From: Acanthochlamys bracteata
Taxonomy: Eukaryota; Streptophyta; Magnoliopsida; Pandanales; Velloziaceae
DNA length: 64,000 nt
NCBI GenBank assembly: GCA_019914995.1
Contig: CM034137.1
Span: 992,001 to 1,056,000 of the forward strand
Reading direction: 5' to 3'
The translations under genes and the position numbers were made by a program. Shown here piece after piece: positions 10,965 through 63,074 of this stretch. Under the pieces are notes generated by a model. The model was not told the origin of the DNA. It did not search any database and worked only from the letters and a program-made list of their open reading frames with translations. How positions within the stretch are numbered: position 1 is the first letter of the stretch; the number at the start of each line of letters is the position of its first letter.

Positions 10965-11164
10965 GGTCTTGTTTGGTTGTGTTTTTTTCGGGCTTTATAT
11001 GCGTTTGGCAACAAACGTTTTAAACTGCTTACAGCAGCTTTTAAAAGCCAAAATTAAAAAGCACCGATTCGGTGCTTTCCAAATAAAGCCGCACGCGGCT
11101 TTTCGCTTCGGGTACCTGAAATGACTACTTTACCCATAATAGTTTTAGAAAATTACAAACTAAT

Positions 11165-11800
11165 ATATATTTTCTACCGCGTGCCCTAATCCCTAATTTT
11201 TTCATTTCTTCCGCTGCCTCCTCCCTCCCGAGCTCCCGATCTCCCGATCGCTTCGCTGCCTCCTCCTCCCGATCGGTTCTTCCGATCTCTCCGTCTCCAA
11301 CGCCGATCAATTTTTCGTCCAATCTCTCCGTCCCTGTAGATCGTTTCCATTCCGATCTCCATCTCTGTCGGATTTTATTTCGAAGGCGACGGGATTGAAG
11401 CGCGGTTGAGGTTTTTTTTTTATTATTTAGATTTAATTATTTGGTTGTTTATTTGTGCGTTGATTTTGTGTAGATTAGTTTTTTTTTGTTGATTTTATTG
11501 GTATGGATGGACGGCCGAAGAGATGCGATTTTTAATTTTTGTTTACTGTGTTAGTGACTGTGATATTTATGTGTTAGTGTATATAATTAGTGACTGTGAT
11601 CGTTATTTATGTTTATTTTTCGTTGCGTTGATTTTTTTTTACAAAGTCTATTGATTTATTCATTCCATAAAATTTTTTTCTTCTTTGTTTGCGTCCGAAT
11701 CGATCAAAATGTGAATAAATTATAGTTTTCTTTCTTCAATCGATTGCTTATAAGGATTTTCGAAAGATCGTCGGTGCAGTTGTCTCTGTGCAGGTATTAA
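11165..11800 (+). promoter_or_regulatory. Leader region of the Harbinger element
   Basis: Positions 11200-11340 are a CT/CG-rich tract with repeated CTCCCGATC words, unlike the AT-rich surroundings and typical of a plant 5' untranslated region. Good GT donors follow at 11411 (GTTGAG|GTTTT) and 11794 (GTGCAG|GTATT). The ORF1 ATG at 15130 is directly preceded by a splice acceptor (ATATATTTAG|ATG). I infer a 3.3-3.7-kb leader intron that contains the whole repeat array. Confidence 0.45.
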
Positions 11801-12109
11801 AAATTAATTCGGATCTTTGCATAACTAAATATGTTAAAATTTTGACATGAATTAAGAATAATTGATCATTTTAAAGATTTTATGGTTATTTTCTGTTGAA
11901 AAGAGTTGTTTGGTGAAGTTATTTGTAAATTTTAGATTTACTTGTAGTTTTAAAATTGTGTGTATTGTTGTATGTATGTTTGAACTTATCGCTGTTTATT
12001 TTTTTACTCAGTTTTGGCATTTTGGTTGCTGATAGAATTGTTTGGTGCTTGCTGGACTTTTGATGAATTTTGAGGGATTTTTGTGTATCCTTGCTGCTTG
12101 CATTATTAC

Positions 12110-14580
12110 CTTGCAGCCCCTTTTGGACGGCATGGCAGGGATCTTTTCTTTAAATGAGATGTTTGGCTAGTTTGATGGTTATTGATAACATGATAATAAA
12201 CTAGATGCTACACTTATCTTAACCAAATATGTATCGTTGCTGCCTATACTTACCCTAACTGGTCCAATGATGAATTTTAAGGGATTGTTAGTTATTCTTA
12301 CTGACAATTAATAATTTTTGAGATATATTTGCCTATGCTTGTCCTTGCTGGTGCTTTGATGATTTTTTAGGGATTGTTGGCTATCGTTGGTGGTTTGGCT
12401 TTAATTTTTTAAGTGGTGTTGTCTATAAACACCCTAACTGGCCCAATGATGAATTTGAGGGATTGTTGGTTATCCTTACAGGCAATTAATAAATTTTGAA
12501 GTATATTTGCTTATGTTTGTCCTTACTGGCCTGTTTATGATTTTTGAGGGATTGTTGGCTATCCTTTATTTGCAAGTAATGAATAATGATGTATAGCTGC
12601 CCTATCTGGATTTTTGAGGGATTGTTGCCTAACCTTACTGCCCCTATGATGATTTCTGAGGGTTTGTTGTCTTATAAAATACTCAAATGAGATATTTGGT
12701 TGCCTTATTATCTTGCAGCCCCTTTTGGACGGCATGGCAGGGATCTTTTCTTTAAATGAGATGTTTGGCTAGCTTGATGGTTATTGATAACATGATAATA
12801 AACTAGATGCTACACTTATCTTAACCAAATATGTATCGTTGCTGCCTATACTTACCCTAACTGGTCCAATGATGAATTTTAAGGGATTGTTAGTTATTCT
12901 TACTGACAATTAATAATTTTTGAGATATATTTGCCTATGCTTGTCCTTGCTGGTGCTTTGATGATTTTTTAGGGATTGTTGGCTATCGTTGCGGTGGTTT
13001 GGCTTTAATTTTTTAAGTGGTGTTGTCTATAAACACCCTAACTGGCCCAATGATGAATTTGAGGGATTGTTGGTTATCCTTACAGGCAATTAATGAATTT
13101 TGAAGTATATTTGCCTATGTTTGTCCTTGCTGGCCTGTTGATGATTTTTTTGGGATTGTTGGCTATCGTTGCTGGTTTGGCTTTAATTTTTGAAGTGGTG
13201 TTGTCTATAAACACCCTTGCTGGCCCTATGATGATTATTGAGGGATTGTCGGATATTTTTACTAGCAAGTAAATATTTTTTGAGATATGTTGCCTATATT
13301 TTTTCCTTGCTGGCCTGTTGATAATTTTTGAGGGATTGTTGGCTATCCTTGGTGGTTTGACTGTGCTTTTTGAAGTGGTGTTGTTTATAAACACCCTTAG
13401 TGGCCCTATGATGATTATTGAGGGATTGTCGGATATCTTTACTAGCAAGTAAATATTTTTTGGGCTATATTTGTCTATGCTTGTCCTTGCTGGCATGTTG
13501 ATGATGTTTGAGGTATTGTTGGCTATGCTTGCTGGTTTGGATTAGTTTTTGAAGTGGTGTTGTCTATAAACACCTTAGCTGGCCCAATGATAAATTTGAG
13601 AGATTGTTGGTTATCCTTACAGACAATTAATGAATTTTGAAGTATATTTGCCTATGTTTGTTCTTGCTGGCCTGTTTATGATTTTTGAGGGATTGTTGGC
13701 TATCCTTTGTTGGCAAGTAATGAATAATGATGTATAGCTGCCCTATCTGGATTTTTGAGGGATTGTTGCCTAACCTTGCTGCCCCTATGATGATTTCGGA
13801 GGGTTTGTTGTCTTATAAAGTACTCAAATGAGATATTTGGTTGCCTTATTATCTTGCAGCCCCTTTGGACGGCATGGCAGGGATCTTTTCTTTAAATGAG
13901 ATGTTTGGCTAGCTTGATGGTTATTGATAACATGATAATAAACTAGATGCTACACTTATCTTAACCAAATATGTATGGTTGCTGCCTATACTTATCATAA
14001 CTGGCCCAATTATGAATTTTGAGGGATTGTTAGTTATTCTTACTGGCAATTAATGATTTTTGAGGTATATTTGTCTATGCTTGTCCTTGCTGGTGCTTTG
14101 ATGATGTTTGAGGGATTGTTGGTTATGCTTGCTGGTTTGGATTAGTTTCGGAAGTGGTGTTGCATATAAACACCCTTGCTGGCCCTATGATGAATTTTGA
14201 AGAAATCGTTGGCTATCCTTACTGGCAAGTAATGAATCTTGATGTATATTTGCCTGTGCTTGCCCTACCTGGCCATATCTGTATTGTTGAGGATTGCTGC
14301 CTAATCTTGCTTCTCCTATGATGATTTTCTGAGGGTTTGTTGTCTTATACATTGCTAAAATGAGATGTTTGATTGCCTTATAATCTTGCAGCCCCTTTTG
14401 GATGGCATGGCAAGAATTGTTAGTTTGAATGAGATGTTTGGCTAGCTTGATAGTTAATAATATCATGATAGTGGAATGGATGCTACACTTACTTTTGAAG
14501 GGATTTTTACCTTATACAACTCTCAACTGAGATGCTATCCTTGCTGGCCCTTTTTTTGAATTGTTGTGGTGGTGCTGCCC
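12110..14580. repeat. Nested tandem repeat array (~180-bp unit with higher-order 602- and 1140-bp spacing)
   Basis: The word GAAGTGGTGTTG and its flanks recur near 12411, 13014, 13192, 13372, 13551 and 14151; adjacent copies are 179-180 bp apart. A longer marker, GCAGCCCCTTTTGGACGG, recurs near 12114, 12716, 13857 and 14390, giving higher-order spacings of about 602, 1140 and 533 bp. The blocks starting at 12121 and 12723 are almost identical for about 400 bp, so at least one duplication is recent. Shorter sub-repeats (GGGATTGTTGGCTATCCTT) occur within each unit. The array lies in the inferred leader intron of the Harbinger element. Confidence 0.9.
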
Positions 14581-14590
14581 AGGCTCTCTT

Positions 14591-14750
14591 GCTGCCCTAT
14601 GATGTCCTTTGAGGGTTTTTTTGTCTGTTGGTGCTACCTTGCTGCCCTATGATGTCCTCTGAGGATTTTTTTGCCTGTTGGTGCTACCTTGCTGCCCTAT
14701 GATGTCCTTTGAGGGTTTTTTTGCCTGTTGGTGCTACCTTGCTGCCCTAT
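14591..14750. repeat. 50-bp tandem repeat, just over three units
   Basis: GCTGCCCTAT occurs at 14591, 14641, 14691 and 14741, exactly 50 bp apart, and the intervening sequence is nearly identical (GATGTCC, GAGG, a T7 run, CTGTTGGTGCTACCTT). Looser copies of the GCTGCCCTATGATG word continue to about 15100. This array is distinct from the 180-bp array before it but shares the GCCCTATGATG core. Confidence 0.92.
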
Positions 14751-15129
14751 GATGAATTTTGAAGATTTATTGGTTATTCTTATTGGCAATTAATAAATTT
14801 TGAGATATATTTTTGTATGCTTGTTCTTACTGGGCTATATGATAATTTTGAGGGATTGTTGGCTATCCCCATATGATGATGTGAGGTATATTTGCCTTAC
14901 ATGCTACTTTGTTGGCCTGTTATTTGAGTTAGTGTGTTGGTGTTGTCTATGCTTTCTTGCTGCCCTATGATGAAGTTTGAGGGATTTATTTTCATACAAT
15001 GCTCAATGAGATGCTTCTTTGCTGCCCTATGATGATGTTTGAGGGATGTTTGATTTATACAATGCTCAAATGAGATGCTTTCTTACTGCCCTATGATGAT
15101 GTTTGAGGAATTTATTTTTATATATTTAG

Positions 15130-16136
15130 ATGGAATCCTCAAAATCACGTCGAGCAAGAAAGGTGAATCCGATTAGGTGGACAGATGCTATCCACGTTAA
15201 GTTTATTGAATATTGTGAACAAGAGATATCTAAGGAGAATAGGCCAAGAACATATTTTAATGTGCAAGGGTGGGCAAATATCAAAAAATTATTTGAAGAA
15301 TTTTATGGCCAGGAGGTTGACCGGAAACAATTAAAAAATCATTGGGATGGTATGAAGAGTGATTACAATAATTATAAATCGTTGGTTCATGGAGAGTCTG
15401 GTTTGGGATGGGATTATACTCGCAATATAATCGCTGCAGATGAGGATTGGTGGGAAGAAAAAATTAAGGTATTTTTATCTAATCGTAAAAAATATGTTAT
15501 TATTATTAAACTAATTTTTTAAATTAATGAACTCTTTTTTTTTAGGCATATCCTAAGTTTAAAAAATTTAAGGGTAAAGATTTATCTATATACCGCGATC
15601 GGTACCCGGTGTTATTTGATAATCTTGTTGCCAATGGTTCGCGGGCTTGGGCACCATCACAAGTTCAACAGGAGACTGCACCTTCAAACCCATCGGACTT
15701 GGAAGGCAGCGGAGATAGCGACGACGTTCGAGGCAATGAAGAACCTCCACCTGCATTTCAGGTTCCCTCTCCTATCATTACTGATAATGATCTCTTTTCA
15801 CAGTCCTTTTCTATATCTCAAAATCCTTTAAGATCAGGAAGTAGTGGTAGGAAGCGAAAGAGTTTCAGATCATCTGGAAAGGAGCATATTGGTGATATGA
15901 CAGAGATAATGCGTCAAAGACATGCAATGACGTTATCGATACCAACCATCCGTCAATGTTTGGCGATATTAGACAGTATTTCTGAGATAGAAGCTGGTAG
16001 CCCTCTAGCCCATTATGCAGCATGTGTTTTGACTAAGAAAGAAAATCGTGAAGTCTCCATGAGTTATCCTAGTGCTGCAGCTCGCTATAGTTGGCTGATG
16101 TTTCACTTTAAATATTTTGGACCGGGAAAATCTTAA
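15130..16136 (+). CDS. Harbinger ORF1: Myb/SANT-like DNA-binding protein
   Basis: Two exons, 15130-15468 and 15546-16136, join in phase 0 across a 77-bp GT-AG intron to give 309 residues. The start is the ATG directly after the TATTTAG acceptor. The N-terminal 115 residues form a Myb/SANT-like domain of the Myb_DNA-bind_3 type: the tryptophan pattern RWTDAIHVKFIEYCEQE, GWANIKKLFEEFYG, LKNHWDGMKSDY and GLGWDYTRNII is clear. The middle is acidic and serine-rich with a basic patch (GRKRKSFRSSGK, a likely nuclear signal). The C-terminus contains a helical segment around IRQCLAILDSI. In PIF/Harbinger elements this protein partners the transposase and aids binding to the ends and nuclear import. 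No break is seen. Confidence 0.85.
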
Positions 16137-16634
16137 ACTAGTTATTGTATGTTGTAATTTGAACATTATCGAACATTAGTAGGTTATTAGTATTATAAAG
16201 TTAGTATGTTGTAAACATTATTAGAATATTGTTATGGTTGTAAAATGATATTATTATATAATATTGGTGGTTTTTATTGTATGTTGTTATGGTTATTATG
16301 TAGTACTATTGTGAATATTATTGGAATATTATTATTGTGTTAATATGATGTTTGTTAAATAATAATATTGTAAATATTTTTGGAATAATTTTGTGGTGGG
16401 TATATGATGTTGTTATGTTATTACTGTGATTTAGTTGAACGTTTAAAATATTATTTTGATAGTATTATGTTAGTATATTGTATCATGATGGTAGTATATA
16501 ATTTGTTCAAAATTATATTATTAGAAAAAATTTTGATATCAATTATAATATTATTGTTTTTTAGAACTGTGAGTTTATACGTATATTTTTAGTTAATATT
16601 GTCATTTAAAATTAATTTTTATATTTGCAGTTAA

Positions 16635-17938
16635 ATTGATCCGTGGGCTAGTGATAGTGAGGAAAATGATAGTGAATAGGAATGGACAGACTTATGTGAA
16701 CAAGCAAATTATGCAGCAATTCAGTATTACAATCGACATTTAAGTAAACGTCCGTGTCGTACATCTATACGCACGGGTAACGTTTTCATAATTGAGATAC
16801 TGCAAGGAAACGAAGTTCGTTGCTATCAAAATTTTCGATTGAAGGTACCTGTTTTTTTACAACTATGTGATGAGTTGACAAGGTTGTACGACTTAGATGC
16901 AACACGTGAAATGTCTGTTCATGAAGAAGTTGCTATTTTTCTCGGAACGTGTGCACATGGTCTAGGAAATAGAGTAAATCAGGAAATTTTTAGTCATTCG
17001 GGTGAGACGATTCATCGGCATTTTCATAGAGTGCTTCAGGCTGTGCTGAGATTGGCTGCAAATATTATAAAGCCTCATGATAGATATAACGAGGGAGAAG
17101 CATTTCATAAACCACAGAATGCACGTTATCTTCCATGGTTTAAAGTAAGTGATCAAGTCGAATTTCGGCACTTAGATTGTTATAATAGATAAGTTGAATT
17201 TTTTATTTTAATCTTAAATTTTGAATACAGGATTGTATTGGAGCTATCGATGGAACACATATCAAAGCAACTATACGACCAGAAGATGTAACACCTTACA
17301 TTGGACGTAAAGGGTATGCTACTCAAAATATATTGGCGGTATGTGATTTTAATATGTGTTTTATATTTGCATGGGCCGGATGGGAAGGGTCAGCTCACGA
17401 TTCACGCATACTGAACGAAGCATTACGCAGGCCTGATTTGAGATTTCCTCATCCTTGCGGAGATAAATATTATTTAGTGGATGCAGAATATAAACATACC
17501 TATAGATATATGGGTCCTTATAAAGGCCGGGATGTAAAATATCATCTGGAGAACTTTCGTCGTGCAAATACACCACAAATGCGGGCGCCTAGAGGGAGAA
17601 AAGAAAAGTTTAACTTTCTACATTCTTCATGCAGGACTATAATTGAACGTACATTTGGCGTATGGAAGGCGCGCTTTGCAATTTTAAGAGATATGCCACT
17701 ATACTCAATAGAGGTACAACGTAATATTATTATTGCGACAATGGCGATACATAACTATATAAGGATTAAAGGAGCAGATGAAGCATTTACAGATACTGAG
17801 CGTGAAACTTATCTACCGTCAGCATTTGAAGCATCTTCTAGTACATCAAACGTTCCACCCGAAGATGAATCCGATCGTAGTGATAGGTGGGATGCATATC
17901 GTGATGCAATTGCAAATGAAATATATAGTCATTTATGA
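16635..17938 (+). pseudogene. Harbinger transposase (DDE_Tnp_4), start codon lost and one stop
   Basis: Exons run 16635-17144 and 17231-17938, joined in phase 0 across a GT-AG intron. The family's acidic start is recognisable as DPWASDSEENDSE, but the codon in the ATG position is ATT (16635-16637) and a TAG follows at 16677-16679. From 16680 the frame is open: a helix-turn-helix region (HEEVAIFLGTCAHGLGNR), then the DDE core with all three catalytic positions present, D in AIDGTH, D in YYLVDAEY and E in IIERTFGVW. So the catalytic domain is whole, but a full-length protein is not encoded as the sequence stands. A shorter product from a later ATG cannot be excluded. Confidence 0.85.
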
Positions 17939-18635
17939 ATGTTGTGTTTCTGTTTGAACTTATGATTGTATTTTATTTTGTTACAATATGTATGACCGTA
18001 TAATATTTATATTAAGATTTATAACAATTGACTTTATTAGTTCTTTAATATTTATTTAATATTTTTATATTATAAAATAAAAAAGTTAAATTTATACAGA
18101 TTTAAATAAATATCAAAATTATTTATTAATTTATCATAATAATACTAAATTTACCAAATAATATAATTTTTTTTAATAACTATTAAATATATTTTTCAAA
18201 TTTAATATTATAATAATTATTATATAATTAATATTATTCAATTTAATTATTGATTGATATTAATAATATAATTTGTTAATAAGTTTATAAATATTAATAT
18301 AAGTAATTATTTATATAATTTTTACATAATAAATTTATTAAATTTTAAAAAAGTAAATAATATATAAAAAATAATTAAAAATTTCATAATATATCAATTA
18401 TTATATACTTAGGGATATTTGGTCATTATATATCACATATAAAAAATGCTTGCTTTTTAGCTAAACACTTCATTCAAATTTTTTCAAAGATTCAAAAGAC
18501 GATACAAAGAAAATTTTATCCAAACATTTTTCAGCATAAAGCTGCTTTTACAGCAAAAGTTCTACAGCTGTTTACAGCACTCTAAAGCAGCTTTACTTCA
18601 AAAACACAAAAGCTTCAGCACATCCAAACAGGGCC

Positions 18636-22000: not shown

Positions 22001-22943
22001 GCTGAATATTTTTTTCCTTTCCAAAACGACAGCGACTTTGTATGATGAACCACAGTGCCCAAAAATACCAATGAAAAGTTAAAGAGTATGACATTCGATT
22101 CAAGAAAATTGTTGATAATGCTTCTGGTTTAACTTTAAAATAAATCCGTGGATGTTGTCTTATGGTCTCTCAGGTCACTCATGTCATGTCATGTGGCTGC
22201 GCCGAGATTGTATGGTGAATATTTAGGATTGATGTTTTTACCCGTATAAGGAAAAGAGTAATTGGACTATTTCAAAGCACTTTTGCCTTGCATAATTGTC
22301 TTAAGTGAGGTTTTGGGTTAAGCTGTACCTTTTAGCAACTGTTCTATTTTCCACTAGCAAGCAGTTTTATGTAAGCTTGCACATTTTGGTTGAAAAACAC
22401 CTTACAGAAGCAGTGCATAGATCTGTTTATTCAAGAATAACTCTTGAGTCTTCATTGAATGCAGGCAAGTCCACAAGATCCTCAAACTTTTCCCTTCATC
22501 TTACTTGGTAACAAGATTGACATAGATGGCGGAAATAGAAGAGTGGTAAGTAAAGTATACTCCTTACTTTTCTTTAATTTTAGGTTTATTTATTATTAGT
22601 ATTTTTTTATGTTGTATGTGGCACTTTTAGATATTTTTTCGTTGTAGGTTTCTGAAAAGAAAGCGAAGGAATGGTGTGCTTCAAAGGGCAACATTCCATA
22701 CTTTGAAACTTCTGCAAAAGAGGATTACAATGTGGACGCTGCATTTTTTACAGTTGCTAAACTTGCACTTGCACGAGATCGGGAACATGATATGTAAGCA
22801 CTTCTTTAGCCAGTTTGTAAAAAGGGTTATCATATAGCTTCTTTTGATATGACCTGCGATATTTTCATGTGTGCAGATACTTCCAAAATATCACTGATAC
22901 AATTCCTGAAATAGAGCAGAGAAGCGGAGGTTGTGCCTGCTGA
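19072..22943 (+). CDS. RABG2: Rab7-type small GTPase, RABG2-like
   Basis: Seven exons: 19072-19124, 19224-19250, 21552-21651, 21756-21902, 22465-22545, 22648-22793 and 22877-22943. They total 621 nt and 206 residues, the normal Rab7 length. Motifs: P-loop GDSGVGKT (15-22), switch I with [15 protein letters not shown] (62-68), NKID (125-128), ETSAK (156-160) and a C-terminal CAC geranylgeranylation motif (204-206). TKELQIDD, the C-terminal DIYFQ stretch and the GGCAC ending resemble RABG2 more than RABG3, whose members usually end in CEC. Family role: controls late endosome/prevacuolar traffic to the vacuole. Exon 2 is a 27-nt microexon, and intron 2 is 2.3 kb and carries a MITE at 19837. The Rab7 call is firm; the RABG2 subgroup is a judgement from memory. 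Confidence 0.9.
19837..20132. mobile_element. Tourist/PIF-type MITE with GTA target duplication, in Rab7 intron 2
   Basis: A 296-bp element begins GGGCATGTTTCAAATGCC and ends TTGAAACACGCCC, so the termini are inverted repeats. It is flanked by GTA on both sides (19834-19836 and 20133-20135). It shares terminal and subterminal sequence (AACTGAGTT, then GTAA and GAAAAATA words) with the copy at 25757-26041 in the opposite orientation. There is no coding capacity. Confidence 0.8.
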
Positions 22944-41147: not shown

Positions 41148-41819
41148 ATGGACGTTTACGTTCCCATGGGCAAGGAGTGGATGATGATGAGTTTCTTCAT
41201 GTGCTGTTGCCTTCAGATTTTAGTACTCCTTTGGTGCTTGCGCCTCTTCGATAAAGCCCAACATGGCTCGCCTGTAGAGAAGAAGCTCAAAGCCGTTGTG
41301 TGGTTGGCCGCTGCATCACTCACGGATATTTTCTTTTACCGAGAAGTAACTATCGTTTCGGTGTTTTCAAAGGTGGTCATATTGGCTTCTTCGCTCACCC
41401 TAGTACTGTTCTATTACGAAGTTACAGCACTCATGCCTACGGCGTTCAAGGTGGTAGTGTGGGCGATGGCTTTGCTCACTACAATTGGTGATGCCTCTGC
41501 CTGGTTTCAATACTTCGGCTGGGGTAGTTTTCTTACCTTCAGCCCTGCAACGGCGGTGTACCGGTCGATGGACGAGCCATGGCCTTTGAGTTTCGTTGTT
41601 TTCGCTTACGTGAATATTCTACTACTTTTCTTCTGTTTGAGCAAGTTCGAGAAGGCTCCGCCGAACTCACCGAAGAAGAAGAAGATGAAGCTGATGGTGT
41701 GGCTCCTTGCGGTATCTATCTCTGATATTTATAACTATGAATCTGCCGCAAATATCATGTCTGTGACGATGAAGGTTGTTGTTTGCGCCATGGCTTCTTC
41801 ACAACTGTTGGTAGATTAA
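41148..41819 (+). CDS. Small membrane protein family, copy A: fused double unit (tentatively DUF6490)
   Basis: This is a single-exon ORF of 223 residues, against 114-136 for its relatives in the cluster. Residues 1-115 resemble the later two-thirds of a unit (LLWCLRLFDKA, LKAVVWLAAASLTDIFFY, then MPTAFKVVVWAMALLTTIG) but lack the family's FLTFNSATAIYRS opening. Residues 117-223 are a full second unit with FLTFSPATAVYRSMDEPW, AYVNILLLFFCL and KMKLMVWLLAVS. Inside unit 1 a segment is doubled: FFYREVTIVSVFSKVVI (62-78) and LFYYEVTALMPTAFKVV (88-104). About six to eight hydrophobic helices are expected. The second unit is closest to copy C (NYESAA / NFESAT). Function is unknown. Confidence 0.65.
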   Translation: MDVYVPMGKEWMMMSFFMCCCLQILVLLWCLRLFDKAQHGSPVEKKLKAVVWLAAASLTDIFFYREVTIVSVFSKVVILASSLTLVLFYYEVTALMPTAFKVVVWAMALLTTIGDASAWFQYFGWGSFLTFSPATAVYRSMDEPWPLSFVVFAYVNILLLFFCLSKFEKAPPNSPKKKKMKLMVWLLAVSISDIYNYESAANIMSVTMKVVVCAMASSQLLVD

Positions 41820-46796: not shown

Positions 46797-47141
46797 TTAG
46801 AAGAACATAAAATCCAGAAACAGTTTAGAAGCAGCGACGCCGCCGATGACAACCTTCACAACCACGGAAATCACCGTAGCAGATTCAAAGTTGCAAATAT
46901 CAGCAACAGAGATGGCGAGTAGCCACACCATCAACTTCATCTTTGTCTTCAGGGGAGAGTTTGGGGTAGCTTTCTCGAACATGCGCAAGCTGAATAACAG
47001 AAGCAGCAAATTCAGGTAAGAGAAAATAACAAATATTAGAACCGTCCATGGATCATCGTCGATGAAGCGGTAGATCCTCGTTGCAGAGTTGAAGGTGAGA
47101 AAGTGCTCCGTGAAGTACTGCTGCCAGACGGTAGTGTTCAT
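46797..47141 (-). CDS. Small four-helix membrane protein, copy C (tentatively DUF6490)
   Basis: The ATG at 47141 gives 114 residues, MNTTVWQQYF then FLTFNSATRIYRFIDDDPW. The frame is open further upstream, but that part is not similar to the paralogues. Family blocks present: FSYLNLLLLLFSLRMFEKA, SPLKTKMKLMVWLLAISVAD and a last helix VISVVVKVVIGGVAAS. It is closest to the second unit of copy A; both have D-I-x-N-x-E-S-A in place of the F-S-Y-K-V-A-A-V-M-P of copies B, D and E. An LTR fossil starts 61 bp upstream of the ATG and separates the coding region from its apparent TATA box at 50207-50215. Confidence 0.68.
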   Translation of the reverse strand: MNTTVWQQYFTEHFLTFNSATRIYRFIDDDPWTVLIFVIFSYLNLLLLLFSLRMFEKATPNSPLKTKMKLMVWLLAISVADICNFESATVISVVVKVVIGGVAASKLFLDFMFF

Positions 47142-50215: not shown

Positions 50216-50550
50216 TAACTAAAGAAAGTTTGGTGTTCGACTAATAATTAATAACTAAAGAAAAGTGACGTCGACTAATAATTAATAACTAAAGAAAAGA
50301 AAAAAACTATATACTAGTTCAAAACACTAAATAATTTTTTCTTTGATGTTGACTAATAACTAATAATTAAAAAAAAGAATAATACTATATACTGCTAATA
50401 CTTATTTTGCAGCATTGCATCCGTGCTCTAAAACGTAACTTCAGTAATAGTCGCTGTATAGAAAAACTCTTAATTTTGTAACTTCAGTATTCACAGGCTG
50501 CATTGCTATTCTCAATCTAAAATTAGTAAGTAGCTACGGTTGTTTAAGGG

Positions 50551-51162
50551 CGGTTAAACCCACCAAATCAGTGTTCACTTGATCCAATCCAATGTGAGTT
50601 ATTAGTCCACCTTCAAATTAGTTAGTCTATTTTTTATTTGGACACCATGCTAAATCTCTACTATACTAATTCGATCCTAGTTCACTAAATTAATCTTTTT
50701 TTCATTCGGACCCATCAAGTCTTACACGCTACTAACACAAGCCTAGACTAACTTAGAAGCCCAATAATCTCCCCTCCAGCAACACGTCGAATGGCTTTAC
50801 ATTACCAAGCTCTGATACTAATTGTAGGATCGGATCTCCACACTAAAAATATTGGTCTATCTCTTAAGGATTAGTATCCTCTACTTATAAGCATATATAT
50901 ATATTTCAGCACCCAACCAATATAGAACTATTAAAAAATATGGGCTATTAAGCCCACCAAGATAGGGTCCACTTGGCCCAATTCACGATGAATTGCTAGT
51001 CTATCTCAAAATTAGCTAGTCTGTTTTTCATTTGGGCACCATTTCAGACTCTTACGCTACTATTCCGATCCTAACCCATCAAACTAATTCGTTTTTCACT
51101 TGGGCCCATTAAATTGTACACGTTATTAACCCAAATCTAACCTAATTTAGAGGTCCAATAGA
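50551..51162 (-). mobile_element. TRIM-like LTR fossil (non-coding miniature retroelement)
   Basis: Two direct repeats of about 220 bp or more lie at 50551-50767 and 50941-51162; the upstream repeat, in minus orientation, seems to extend to about 50823. Just inside it, on the minus strand, lies AGTATCAGAGCTTGG, close to the plant initiator-methionine primer site. A purine run GGAGGGGAGA (about 50777-50768) stands before the other repeat. Only about 55 bp separate repeat and repeat, with no coding sequence, as in TRIM elements. The element looks incomplete at one end. It is missing from the paralogous segment near 57945, so it arrived after that duplication. Confidence 0.65.
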
Positions 51163-51720
51163 ATTATTTTACCAACAAAATGTGAAGTATTTCTTGATGT
51201 ATGTGAGTTAGTGTAGGGATATTGGTGTTGGAATTGATCGCGACCACTTTATTACTAAGATTGTTTGCGAGTATTTATAAAAAAGTATTTTTTAAAATAA
51301 AAATATTTTTAGTTATATTTTAATAAATATATTATATTTTTATTTTAAAAAATAAATAAGTAATAATAAAATTTTATAATATAGATTCTTTTATTTTTAA
51401 TTTTTAAAATAAATTTATAGTATAAATTTATTTTAAAATATAAAATTATAAAAAAAGCTTCGTAGATTTGTCAGTTGCCTGCCTATCCTAATTATTCAAG
51501 ACTTGAAGCTAATCAGATGAGCCAGCGTCTCAAGTCTATTCAAGCATTTCAATTTGGATCCTGAAAAAGAAGTGTATTCTTAGAAAGAAAGGAAATGTCA
51601 AGCACGCATTGGAGTTAATTATCGCGATCTCAGCAAGACTATGAATAATCAAAACCGCAGTCGGTAGGATTTATCTATTCGAGAATGCAACTTCGCGGAA
51701 GCTCCATTTCCATCCCGTCT

Positions 51721-57604: not shown

Positions 57605-58965
57605 AAATAAAAAAAATTTGGTGCTGATGTCGACTAATAATTAATAACTAAATAAAAAAATAATACTAGTTCATCTTAAAACGCTAAATAATTATTTTTC
57701 TTTGATGTTGACTAATAATTAATAATTAAAAAAAAAGAATAAAACTACATACTGCTAATACTTATTTTGCAGCATTGCATCCGTCTCACTGCAACCCTAT
57801 AGTATATATCAACAATGCTCTAAAACGTAACTTCAGTAACACTCGCTGTATAGAAAACCTCTTAACTTTGTAACTTCAGTATTCACAGGCTGCATTGCTA
57901 TTCTCAATCTAAAATTAATAAGTAGCTACTGTTTTAAGGGTTGTTTTACCAACAAAATGTGAAGTATTCCTCTCTGTATGTGAGTTGATGTAGCGATATT
58001 GGTGTTGGAATTGATCGCGACCACATTATTACTAAGATCGCTTGTAAGTGTTTATATAAAAAAAAAATTATTTTATTTAAAAAAACAAATTATTTTTTTA
58101 TTTATAAAAATCAATAATAAAATAATTTATAATATAAAATTTTTACATTTTTTAAATTTTGCAAATAAATAAAATTTATTTAAAATAAAAAGTACAACCA
58201 AACGATTTCTAGAATTTGTCAGTTGCCTGCCTATAGGCCCTATACATCACTAATTTACTTAAATAGCTCGTGGTAGTTAAGGTAACACGCTATCCCAATT
58301 ATTCAAGCCTTAAAGATAAAGCGCGTTTGTTAGTTTATTTTAAAAATTGGTTATTAGTTTTTTTATTTTATATTTTTTAATATATATTTTATAAATAAAA
58401 ATTTATTTAAAAATTTAGAAAATATAAAAAAATTCTAAAAAATGAGATATTTTTATTATATATTTTTATTATTTTTCTAAAATAAAAAATAAAACTTATT
58501 TTTAAAAAAATAAAAATATTTTTTATTTTAAAAAAATTTTATTTTATAAATACTTTCAAACGCTCTCATAATCAAATGAGTTCATGGATGTTTGAAAAAG
58601 CTTTTTTTTTAGTATAATTTTTTAGTTTATATTTTTATAAAATTTTTGAATATTTTTATAAAAATTTTAAATTTTAAAAAAATATAAAATTTTTACATCA
58701 TAAATTTTTATTATTTTATAAACCAAAATTTATTTCAAATATTTCAAATATAAAATTTTTTTTTTAATAGCAATTTCAAATATACTCTCACTATCTCAAG
58801 TCTATTCAAGCATCTCAACTTTCAAAGAACTATTCTGATCCTGAAAAAAGAAGTGTATTCCTAGAAAGAAATGAAATGTCAAGCACGCATCGCGATCTCA
58901 GCAGTCGGTAGGATTTAAAATATTCGAGAATGCAACTTCGTGGAAGTTTCGTGAAAGCTTCGTGT
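57605..58965 (-). repeat. Upstream segment of copy E, paralogous to 50178-51720
   Basis: Same ordered blocks as listed for the copy C segment. Differences include absence of the TRIM-like fossil, an extra CTCACTGCAACCCTATAG stretch near 57786 and MITE insertions at 58322-58571 and possibly 58590-58790. The two segments are readily alignable by eye outside the insertions. Confidence 0.85.
58322..58571. mobile_element. AT-rich MITE copy in the copy E upstream segment
   Basis: It begins GCGCGTTTGTTAGTTTATT and ends ACTTTCAAACGCTC, inverted ends of the GCGTTTGG family, with the core in the orientation of the 25398 copy. It is absent from the paralogous segment near 51500, where the flanking words TTATTCAAGACTTGAAG and CAAGTCTATTCAAGCAT are almost adjacent. 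A second A/T-only block at 58590-58790 may be another insertion. Confidence 0.65.
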
Positions 58966-62656: not shown

Positions 62657-63074
62657 GAGAGATAGGAACACTATTTTTTTAAATGCACTTTCGGACACTC
62701 GCTCTTTAGTTTATGACCGGAATAATTTCTAAATTCTATTTTTATTATTGAATATGAAGAACTATGAGTTAAAAATATACTCATAAAATTTCAGCTTAAT
62801 CTGACCACAAATTTATCTCCATCCAGTCATTTGATCAAGATGACAAAAAATAAAAAATAATTTAAAAATATATATTATATCATTTCTATCTTATTGATCA
62901 AATGACTAAATAGAGATAAATTTATGGTCTGATGGAGCTGAATTTTGTAAATATATTTCTAAATTATAGTTCTTCATATCCAACGATGAACATTGAATTG
63001 AACGTCACTTCGACTATAAATCAGAAAAAGAGTGCCCGAAAAATCTCTAAAAAGAGAGTGCCACTATATCTCTC
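62657..63074. mobile_element. Foldback/MITE-like element with ~190-bp inverted arms
   Basis: The left arm starts GAGAGATAGGAACACT and the right arm, inverted, starts GAGAGATATAGTGGCACT. The similarity runs inward through CACTTTCGG/TTTTCGGGCACT, ATATGAAGAACTAT, AAATTTATCTC and AGTCATTTGATCAA to about 62845 on the left and 62890 on the right, leaving a short A/T spacer. A transcript would fold into a long imperfect hairpin. No clear target duplication was seen, so the superfamily (Mutator-like or foldback) is open. Confidence 0.75.

Follow-up and report, generated by a model that had tools for sequence, protein, structure and literature searches.

A nested repeat array with a tetrameric 180-bp unit ahead of ORF1 in a PIF/Harbinger-type element of Acanthochlamys bracteata

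Discussion of higher-order repeats mostly centres on the satellites of centromeres. How several nested levels of tandem repetition could come to lie inside a single DNA transposon is the question raised by a stretch of the Acanthochlamys bracteata genome (64,000 nucleotides of contig CM034137.1, assembly GCA_019914995.1, positions 992,001-1,056,000, forward strand; hereafter the 64-kb window, G+C content 32.7%). A first-pass annotation had placed a satellite-like nested array here within a Harbinger element, between a CT-rich leader and its first open reading frame, ORF1, and this placement is supported by Tandem Repeats Finder (TRF), self-BLAST, Pfam and the order of the monomer classes. Judged from the window itself and from the literature, the array is probably a minisatellite that lies in an intron of a plant PIF/Harbinger-type transposon and has expanded through tandem duplication and unequal exchange.

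TRF, which had been proposed as a check on the repeats, finds arrays of 180-bp (4.8 copies, 12854-13707, 84% matches), 89-bp (also given as 89/90-bp; 3.4 copies, 12268-12566, 64% matches), 50-bp (3.3 copies, 14588-14754, 95% matches) and 64-bp units (2.8 copies, 14949-15122, 84% matches). Self-BLAST of the window adds two longer steps, of 602 bp (12095-12563 vs 12697-13167, 97.5% identity over 471 columns) and 1141 bp (12252-13135 vs 13393-14274, 89.6% over 888 columns), and no match beyond the array. A profile hidden Markov model (HMM) trained on the array copies was used to scan the whole window, and returned 50 rows, all on the + strand: 43 inside the array and 7 outside, the best of the latter reaching only 5.6 bits. 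Within the array, 41 of the 43 rows exceed 7 bits (12047-15112), the remaining two being weak (4.3 and 2.8 bits) and excluded, and 39 of the 41 monomer copies score above 12.2 bits, the most that 50 dinucleotide shuffles of the array attained. The ~41-bp monomer is also present in the 50-bp and 62-64-bp units, so that all belong to one family, arranged head to tail in tandem as in a satellite, though over only 3 kb. Some details of the first-pass annotation shift accordingly. The array starts at ~12047 and not at 12110; the 180-bp periodicity holds within 12254-12561, 12856-13707 and 13996-14262 but not across all 3 kb; and the 50-bp units, described as exact, are present but nearly rather than strictly so.

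The 180-bp unit, which had been said to be composed of shorter repeats, is a tetramer of diverged monomers in the fixed order A-B-C-D, because the classes recur in that order and the B and D slots align with the A/C monomer better than shuffles do. In the central fields the monomer spacing is 41, 48, 41 and ~50 bp, summing to 180. These fields, taken without the heads, tails, 50-bp and 64-bp units, were divided into 32 slots carrying the labels A-B-C-D. Mean identity within classes was 82.4% (A), 81.3% (B), 88.4% (C) and 85.9% (D), as against 50.5-75.5% between classes, and the within-minus-between gap of 25.5 points was larger than in all 500 label permutations (largest 8.1). For the two B slots tested against the A/C monomer, 0 and 0 of 1000 shuffles aligned as well, and for the two D slots 3 and 0 of 1000. 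As in other higher-order repeats, then, a multi-monomer unit keeps its classes in fixed order (32 slots, 500 permutations), and its copies are more alike (81-92.5% pairwise identity among the 180-bp units of block II, see below) than the component monomers between classes (50-76%). A decamer ancestor of the monomer was considered and is not established: the lag-10 self-match (nominal p of 0.0165 for the 41-mer, 0.004 for the 50-mer, 0.012 for U2, 0.32 for U3 and 0.49 for the head) weakens once the choice of lag is allowed for (0.25, 0.042, 0.13, 0.65 and 0.064, respectively).

Above the tetramer lies a level of blocks (Table 1). Each block opens with a ~140-bp head (TTGCAGCCCC...), the motif AG of which ends at 12116, 12718, 13859 and 14391; the block steps are therefore 602, 1141 and 532 bp. 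The first two of these are the duplications of ~600 and ~1140 bp reported earlier, and the 602-bp step also accounts for the near-identity that had been noted between the regions at 12121 and 12723 (97.5% over the 471 columns). Blocks I and II share heads identical at 140/141 positions, first units (U1) that agree at all 179 of 179 aligned bases, 2 columns being gapped, and tails identical at 145/150; they are the youngest pair. Block I is shorter than block II by 539 bp, that is, three 180-bp units, and its second unit (U2') is chimeric, being U2-like at the first six of nine informative sites (12434-12521) and U5-like at the last three (12536-12547). This U2/U5 chimera, with its single clean switch, is the trace left by an in-register exchange equivalent to three units of 180 bp. 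U3 and U4 stand ~15% apart from U2, far above the difference between blocks I and II, which would make loss of the three units from block I the simpler direction. Homogenisation is patchy, because the heads of blocks II and III (138/140 identical) are far more alike than the adjoining U1 (158/178) and tail (97/112; Fisher p=0.0005 and 0.0002).

The array makes up 3083 of the 7671 bp of its host element, whose superfamily is indicated by its two reading frames. Exon 1 of ORF1 matches the Pfam family Myb_DNA-bind_3 (E=4.5e-20), the Myb/SANT-like second ORF of PIF/Harbinger elements, and the second exon of ORF2 (17231-17935) matches DDE_Tnp_4 (E=2.3e-21), a Harbinger-type DDE transposase; exon 2 of ORF1 and the first readable exon of ORF2 have no match in Pfam. 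Searches of the PDB gave none for the second exon of ORF2 up to E=1 and, for exon 1 of ORF1, only two weak matches (E 0.0093 and 0.025), both to unrelated molecules. The remaining collections searched comprise prokaryotes, viruses and plasmids, and their results carry no information on the host genome: the transposase exon gave 4 pattern matches among viral contigs and 18 among prokaryotic genome contigs, none confirmed as a relative, DNA patterns gave no match in viral or genome contigs, and the plasmids gave none either. The frame of ORF2 is interrupted by a stop (16677-16679), no ATG separates this stop from the previous one in the frame, and the present copy therefore looks defective, its transposase apparently disabled. 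The termini are putative. The two terminal inverted repeats (TIRs), GGTCTTGTTTGGTTGTG and GGCCCTGTTTGGATGTG, are identical at 14/17 positions, which is not significant alone, as 3/60 random 100x100 comparisons reach at least 14. Their TGTTTGG core fits several published PIF/Harbinger ends (PMC2213677, PMC6327408, as excerpted). The flanking trinucleotides, TAC and TAT, agree at two of three positions, where target site duplications of PIF/Harbinger elements are 3 bp, mostly TTA or TAA. Compared with the window, the element ends gave, besides self and inverted matches in or near the ends, only short matches (E at or above 0.42). The 3' non-coding part of the element carries an AT-rich 102-bp tandem repeat of 1.8 copies (TRF, 18157-18345), with no self-BLAST match to the array.

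An intron ahead of ORF1 is predicted from splice scores computed with a rough weight matrix. Within 11100-15300 the donor at 11794 scores highest (7.9 bits), and the acceptor at 15129, adjoining the ORF1 ATG (15130), scores 7.1 bits; the internal introns of ORF1 and ORF2 score 7.9/8.7 and 7.4/8.1 bits (donor/acceptor). The last 64-bp-type unit runs into this acceptor, and GAG-ATG stands at the matching place in the two preceding units. As the last units share their register with the acceptor and the ATG, growth of the array may have begun at the 3' end of the intron itself. Acceptor candidates scoring above 5 bits number 13 vs 25.6 +/- 4.7 in 100 mononucleotide shuffles, and donor candidates 14 vs 19.1 +/- 3.9, fewer than in this control, which ignores repetition. 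Each block head also starts with an acceptor-like TTGCAG/CCCC (AG at the four positions given above, 7.4-8.3 bits), a possible alternative acceptor, which is followed by a short frame ATGGCA...TAG.

Table 1. Features of the element and its array, in window coordinates. A slash marks the candidate splice junction.
Feature	Coordinates	Strand	Description
PIF/Harbinger-type element	10965-18635	+	7671 bp, putative TIR to TIR
Putative 5' TIR	10965-10981	+	GGTCTTGTTTGGTTGTG
Putative TATA box (11164) and CT-rich leader	11164-11793	+	would end at candidate donor TGCAG/GTATTA
Predicted leader (5' untranslated region) intron	11794-15129	+	3336 bp; acceptor ATTTAG abuts ORF1 ATG
Nested repeat array	12047-15129	+	3083 bp, ~41 copies of ~41-bp monomer (TRF, self-BLAST, profile HMM)
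Block I	12111-12712	+	602 bp: head, U1, chimeric U2/U5 unit, tail
Block II	12713-13853	+	1141 bp: head, five 180-bp units (last partial), tail
Block III	13854-14385	+	532 bp: head, ~1.5 tetramers, diverged tail
Block IV	14386-14491	+	diverged head only; 81/98 columns identical to head II
50-bp units	14588-14754	+	3.3 copies, same monomer family
62-64-bp units	14949-15122	+	2.8 copies, same monomer family; last heads towards acceptor
ORF1	15130-16136	+	exons 15130-15468, 15546-16136; 309 aa
ORF2 (transposase)	16680-17938	+	readable exons 16680-17144, 17231-17938
Putative 3' TIR	18619-18635	-	GGCCCTGTTTGGATGTG (reverse complement)

Taken as an intronic minisatellite, the array could have arisen in a few steps. 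Within the leader intron that precedes ORF1, a ~41-bp monomer would have been duplicated in tandem, and diverged neighbouring monomers would then have become locked into the four-monomer unit of 180 bp. Later duplications would have copied whole blocks of ~600 bp or more, while in-register unequal exchange, or template switching during the repair of gaps left by excision, would have changed the number of 180-bp units and also homogenised parts of blocks. The intronic position would let the array be tolerated, presumably as neutral sequence, leaving ORF1 unharmed. Of all this, the single monomer family, the order of the tetramer, the copying of blocks, the chimera and the patchy homogenisation are seen in the sequence, and the intron, its neutrality and the recombination route are inferred. 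Several observations weigh against this account. The array was read from a single copy of the element. The ~140-bp heads are without an established monomer origin, and the D slot fails to score on the monomer HMM (six tested, best 0.1 bits), though pairwise alignment backs it as a monomer. Two donors inside the array come close to that at 11794 (7.8 against 7.9 bits), and while an AG does adjoin the ORF1 ATG, as had been claimed, eight acceptors inside the array, those of all four heads included, outscore it (7.4-8.4 bits). For this reason the leader intron is a prediction only, and other junctions, or a mixture of them, could be used.

A repeat array within a Harbinger element of a plant is of a known kind, given the precedent of the MtPH-A6-4 elements of Medicago truncatula; this and the other published systems are compared here from excerpts of their sources. 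Of 23 MtPH-A6-4 elements, 18 carry 2-35 imperfect 60-bp repeats, the repeat itself containing a triplicated motif, and the authors linked changes in repeat number to abortive gap repair; in the extreme cases the repeats fill nearly the whole region between the TIRs (PMC2213677). Both systems belong to the plant PIF/Harbinger superfamily and have internal tandem repeats of a short, sub-repeated unit, and in the excerpted literature MtPH-A6-4 is the closest known case found. The present element differs in having one + strand array ahead of ORF1, with tetrameric 180-bp and block order; its place before ORF1, its level of blocks and the constant order within the tetramer seem to be what sets it apart. 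The MtPH-A6-4 motif AAACNNCTTATT occurs at five places in the array with one mismatch, and its total of 21 in the window is within chance (19/100 shuffles). Among the open-licence papers listed, judged by title and opening of abstract or by excerpt, no Harbinger element turned up with an array of higher-order organisation before its ORF1, which is no proof of absence.

A bolder form of this account seems doubtful: that satellite-style evolution, from monomer to tetramer to homogenised blocks, ran its course within the intron of one ordinary DNA transposon in a gene-bearing neighbourhood, the array perhaps being seeded by duplication of the intron's 3' end. On this reading, an already formed higher-order array would enter the genome with every transposition. 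In 3 kb, with all levels readable and a clean exchange scar, the steps from monomer to higher order could be put in sequence if other copies show intermediates. The array alone is no proof that satellites arise from Harbinger elements.

Somewhat less likely still is that the element is a satellite birthplace, the 180-bp unit having escaped from it to form free long arrays elsewhere, for example in heterochromatin. Such routes are reported for repeats of the 3' untranslated region of Ogre in Lathyrus (PMC7004042) and for TIR-220 of Tetris in Drosophila (PMC4079207), and are treated in reviews (PMC12628747, PMC9659126); the tetrameric order and patchy homogenisation of the present array resemble satellite evolution as well. 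Ogre, a plant element as well, has hypervariable tandem repeats inside non-coding sequence, but it is a long terminal repeat retrotransposon with reported derived satellites (PMC7004042). Tetris of Drosophila virilis is a DNA transposon with ~220-bp internal tandem repeats that vary in number, for which unequal crossing-over was proposed; however, it is foldback-like, its repeats lie in the TIRs, and satellite-like arrays have been shown for it (PMC4079207). Here self-BLAST and the HMM find no free copy of the array within the 64 kb, and its neighbourhood is gene-bearing. Even the 60-bp repeats at 27 further Medicago sites all kept homology to the element end on at least one side (PMC2213677), and with this residual homology they have not clearly departed from the element.

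It is improbable that the array is a passenger, that is, host DNA or a host minisatellite which existed beforehand and was captured in the 5' part of the element by transduplication. Pifvine-3 of grapevine, also a PIF element with a long 5' region outside its two ORFs, often carries there up to 3.5 kb that as a rule match host sequences (PMC2528002), and the heads of the present blocks resemble non-monomer sequence. In Pifvine-3, however, the 5' region is captured host sequence, in contrast to the tandem repeat of the present element. The last units moreover reach the ORF1 acceptor and share its register, the T-rich composition with G>C of 11794-12046 continues into the array, and self-BLAST finds no donor sequence within the window.

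An equally improbable reading is functional: the Myb-like ORF1 protein, or else the transposase, would have repeated sites in the array, or the intron would enhance or delay ORF1 expression. Copies of the TIR core TGTTTGG do lie on the + strand within the array (12160, 12762, 13902 and 14435) and just upstream of it (11907 and 12039), and binding sites in tandem repeats have parallels in Galileo and Tetris (PMC4079207, as excerpted). Yet the four within the array stem from the copying of a single head, and the window, counted on both strands, has 25 instances of the 7-mer. RNA structure was rejected (z -1.61 to +1.28 in 6 folded stretches), and the window has no Rfam match at gathering threshold. 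An assembly artefact, with block I a false duplicate of block II, would accord with their matching U1 (179/179 aligned bases, 2 gap columns) and is very hard to credit, as the tails differ (145/150), the heads differ at one base (140/141) and the block I unit is chimeric.

The first-pass annotation had further attached meaning to a unit near nucleosome length, for which no support was obtained. The strongest A/T period of the array in the range of 8-60 bp is 10.0 bp and exceeds that of 49 control stretches of the window, but helical phasing was rejected as a sign of nucleosome design because 45/300 random 180-bp tandem arrays reach equal power. On the + strand, where coding potential was considered, the longest stop-to-stop frame of the array has only 69 codons. 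A longer stop-to-stop frame, of 153 codons and with a repeat of 60 residues, lies on the minus strand (13083-13541); 1/300 mononucleotide shuffles reach this length, and any repeat of 180 bp (3x60) would keep a frame of this sort open.

Downstream of the element, a small GTPase gene (Ras family, E=6.5e-37 for manually joined exon translations; 19072 to ~22600), which we take to be Rab7-like, starts ~0.44 kb past the 3' end, placing the element in the upstream region of that gene; 22459-22599 alone has no match in Pfam. Self-BLAST also reveals other repeats in the window. Two collinear similar stretches (50266-51609 and 57625-58890, 77-94% in pieces) are apparently another repeated element. An inverted similar pair at 41529-41746 and 46879-47102 (74.6%) has weaker partial matches near 54.1-54.2 kb, and a long inverted repeat at 62732-62999 (78% over 272 columns) is possibly like a miniature inverted-repeat transposable element.
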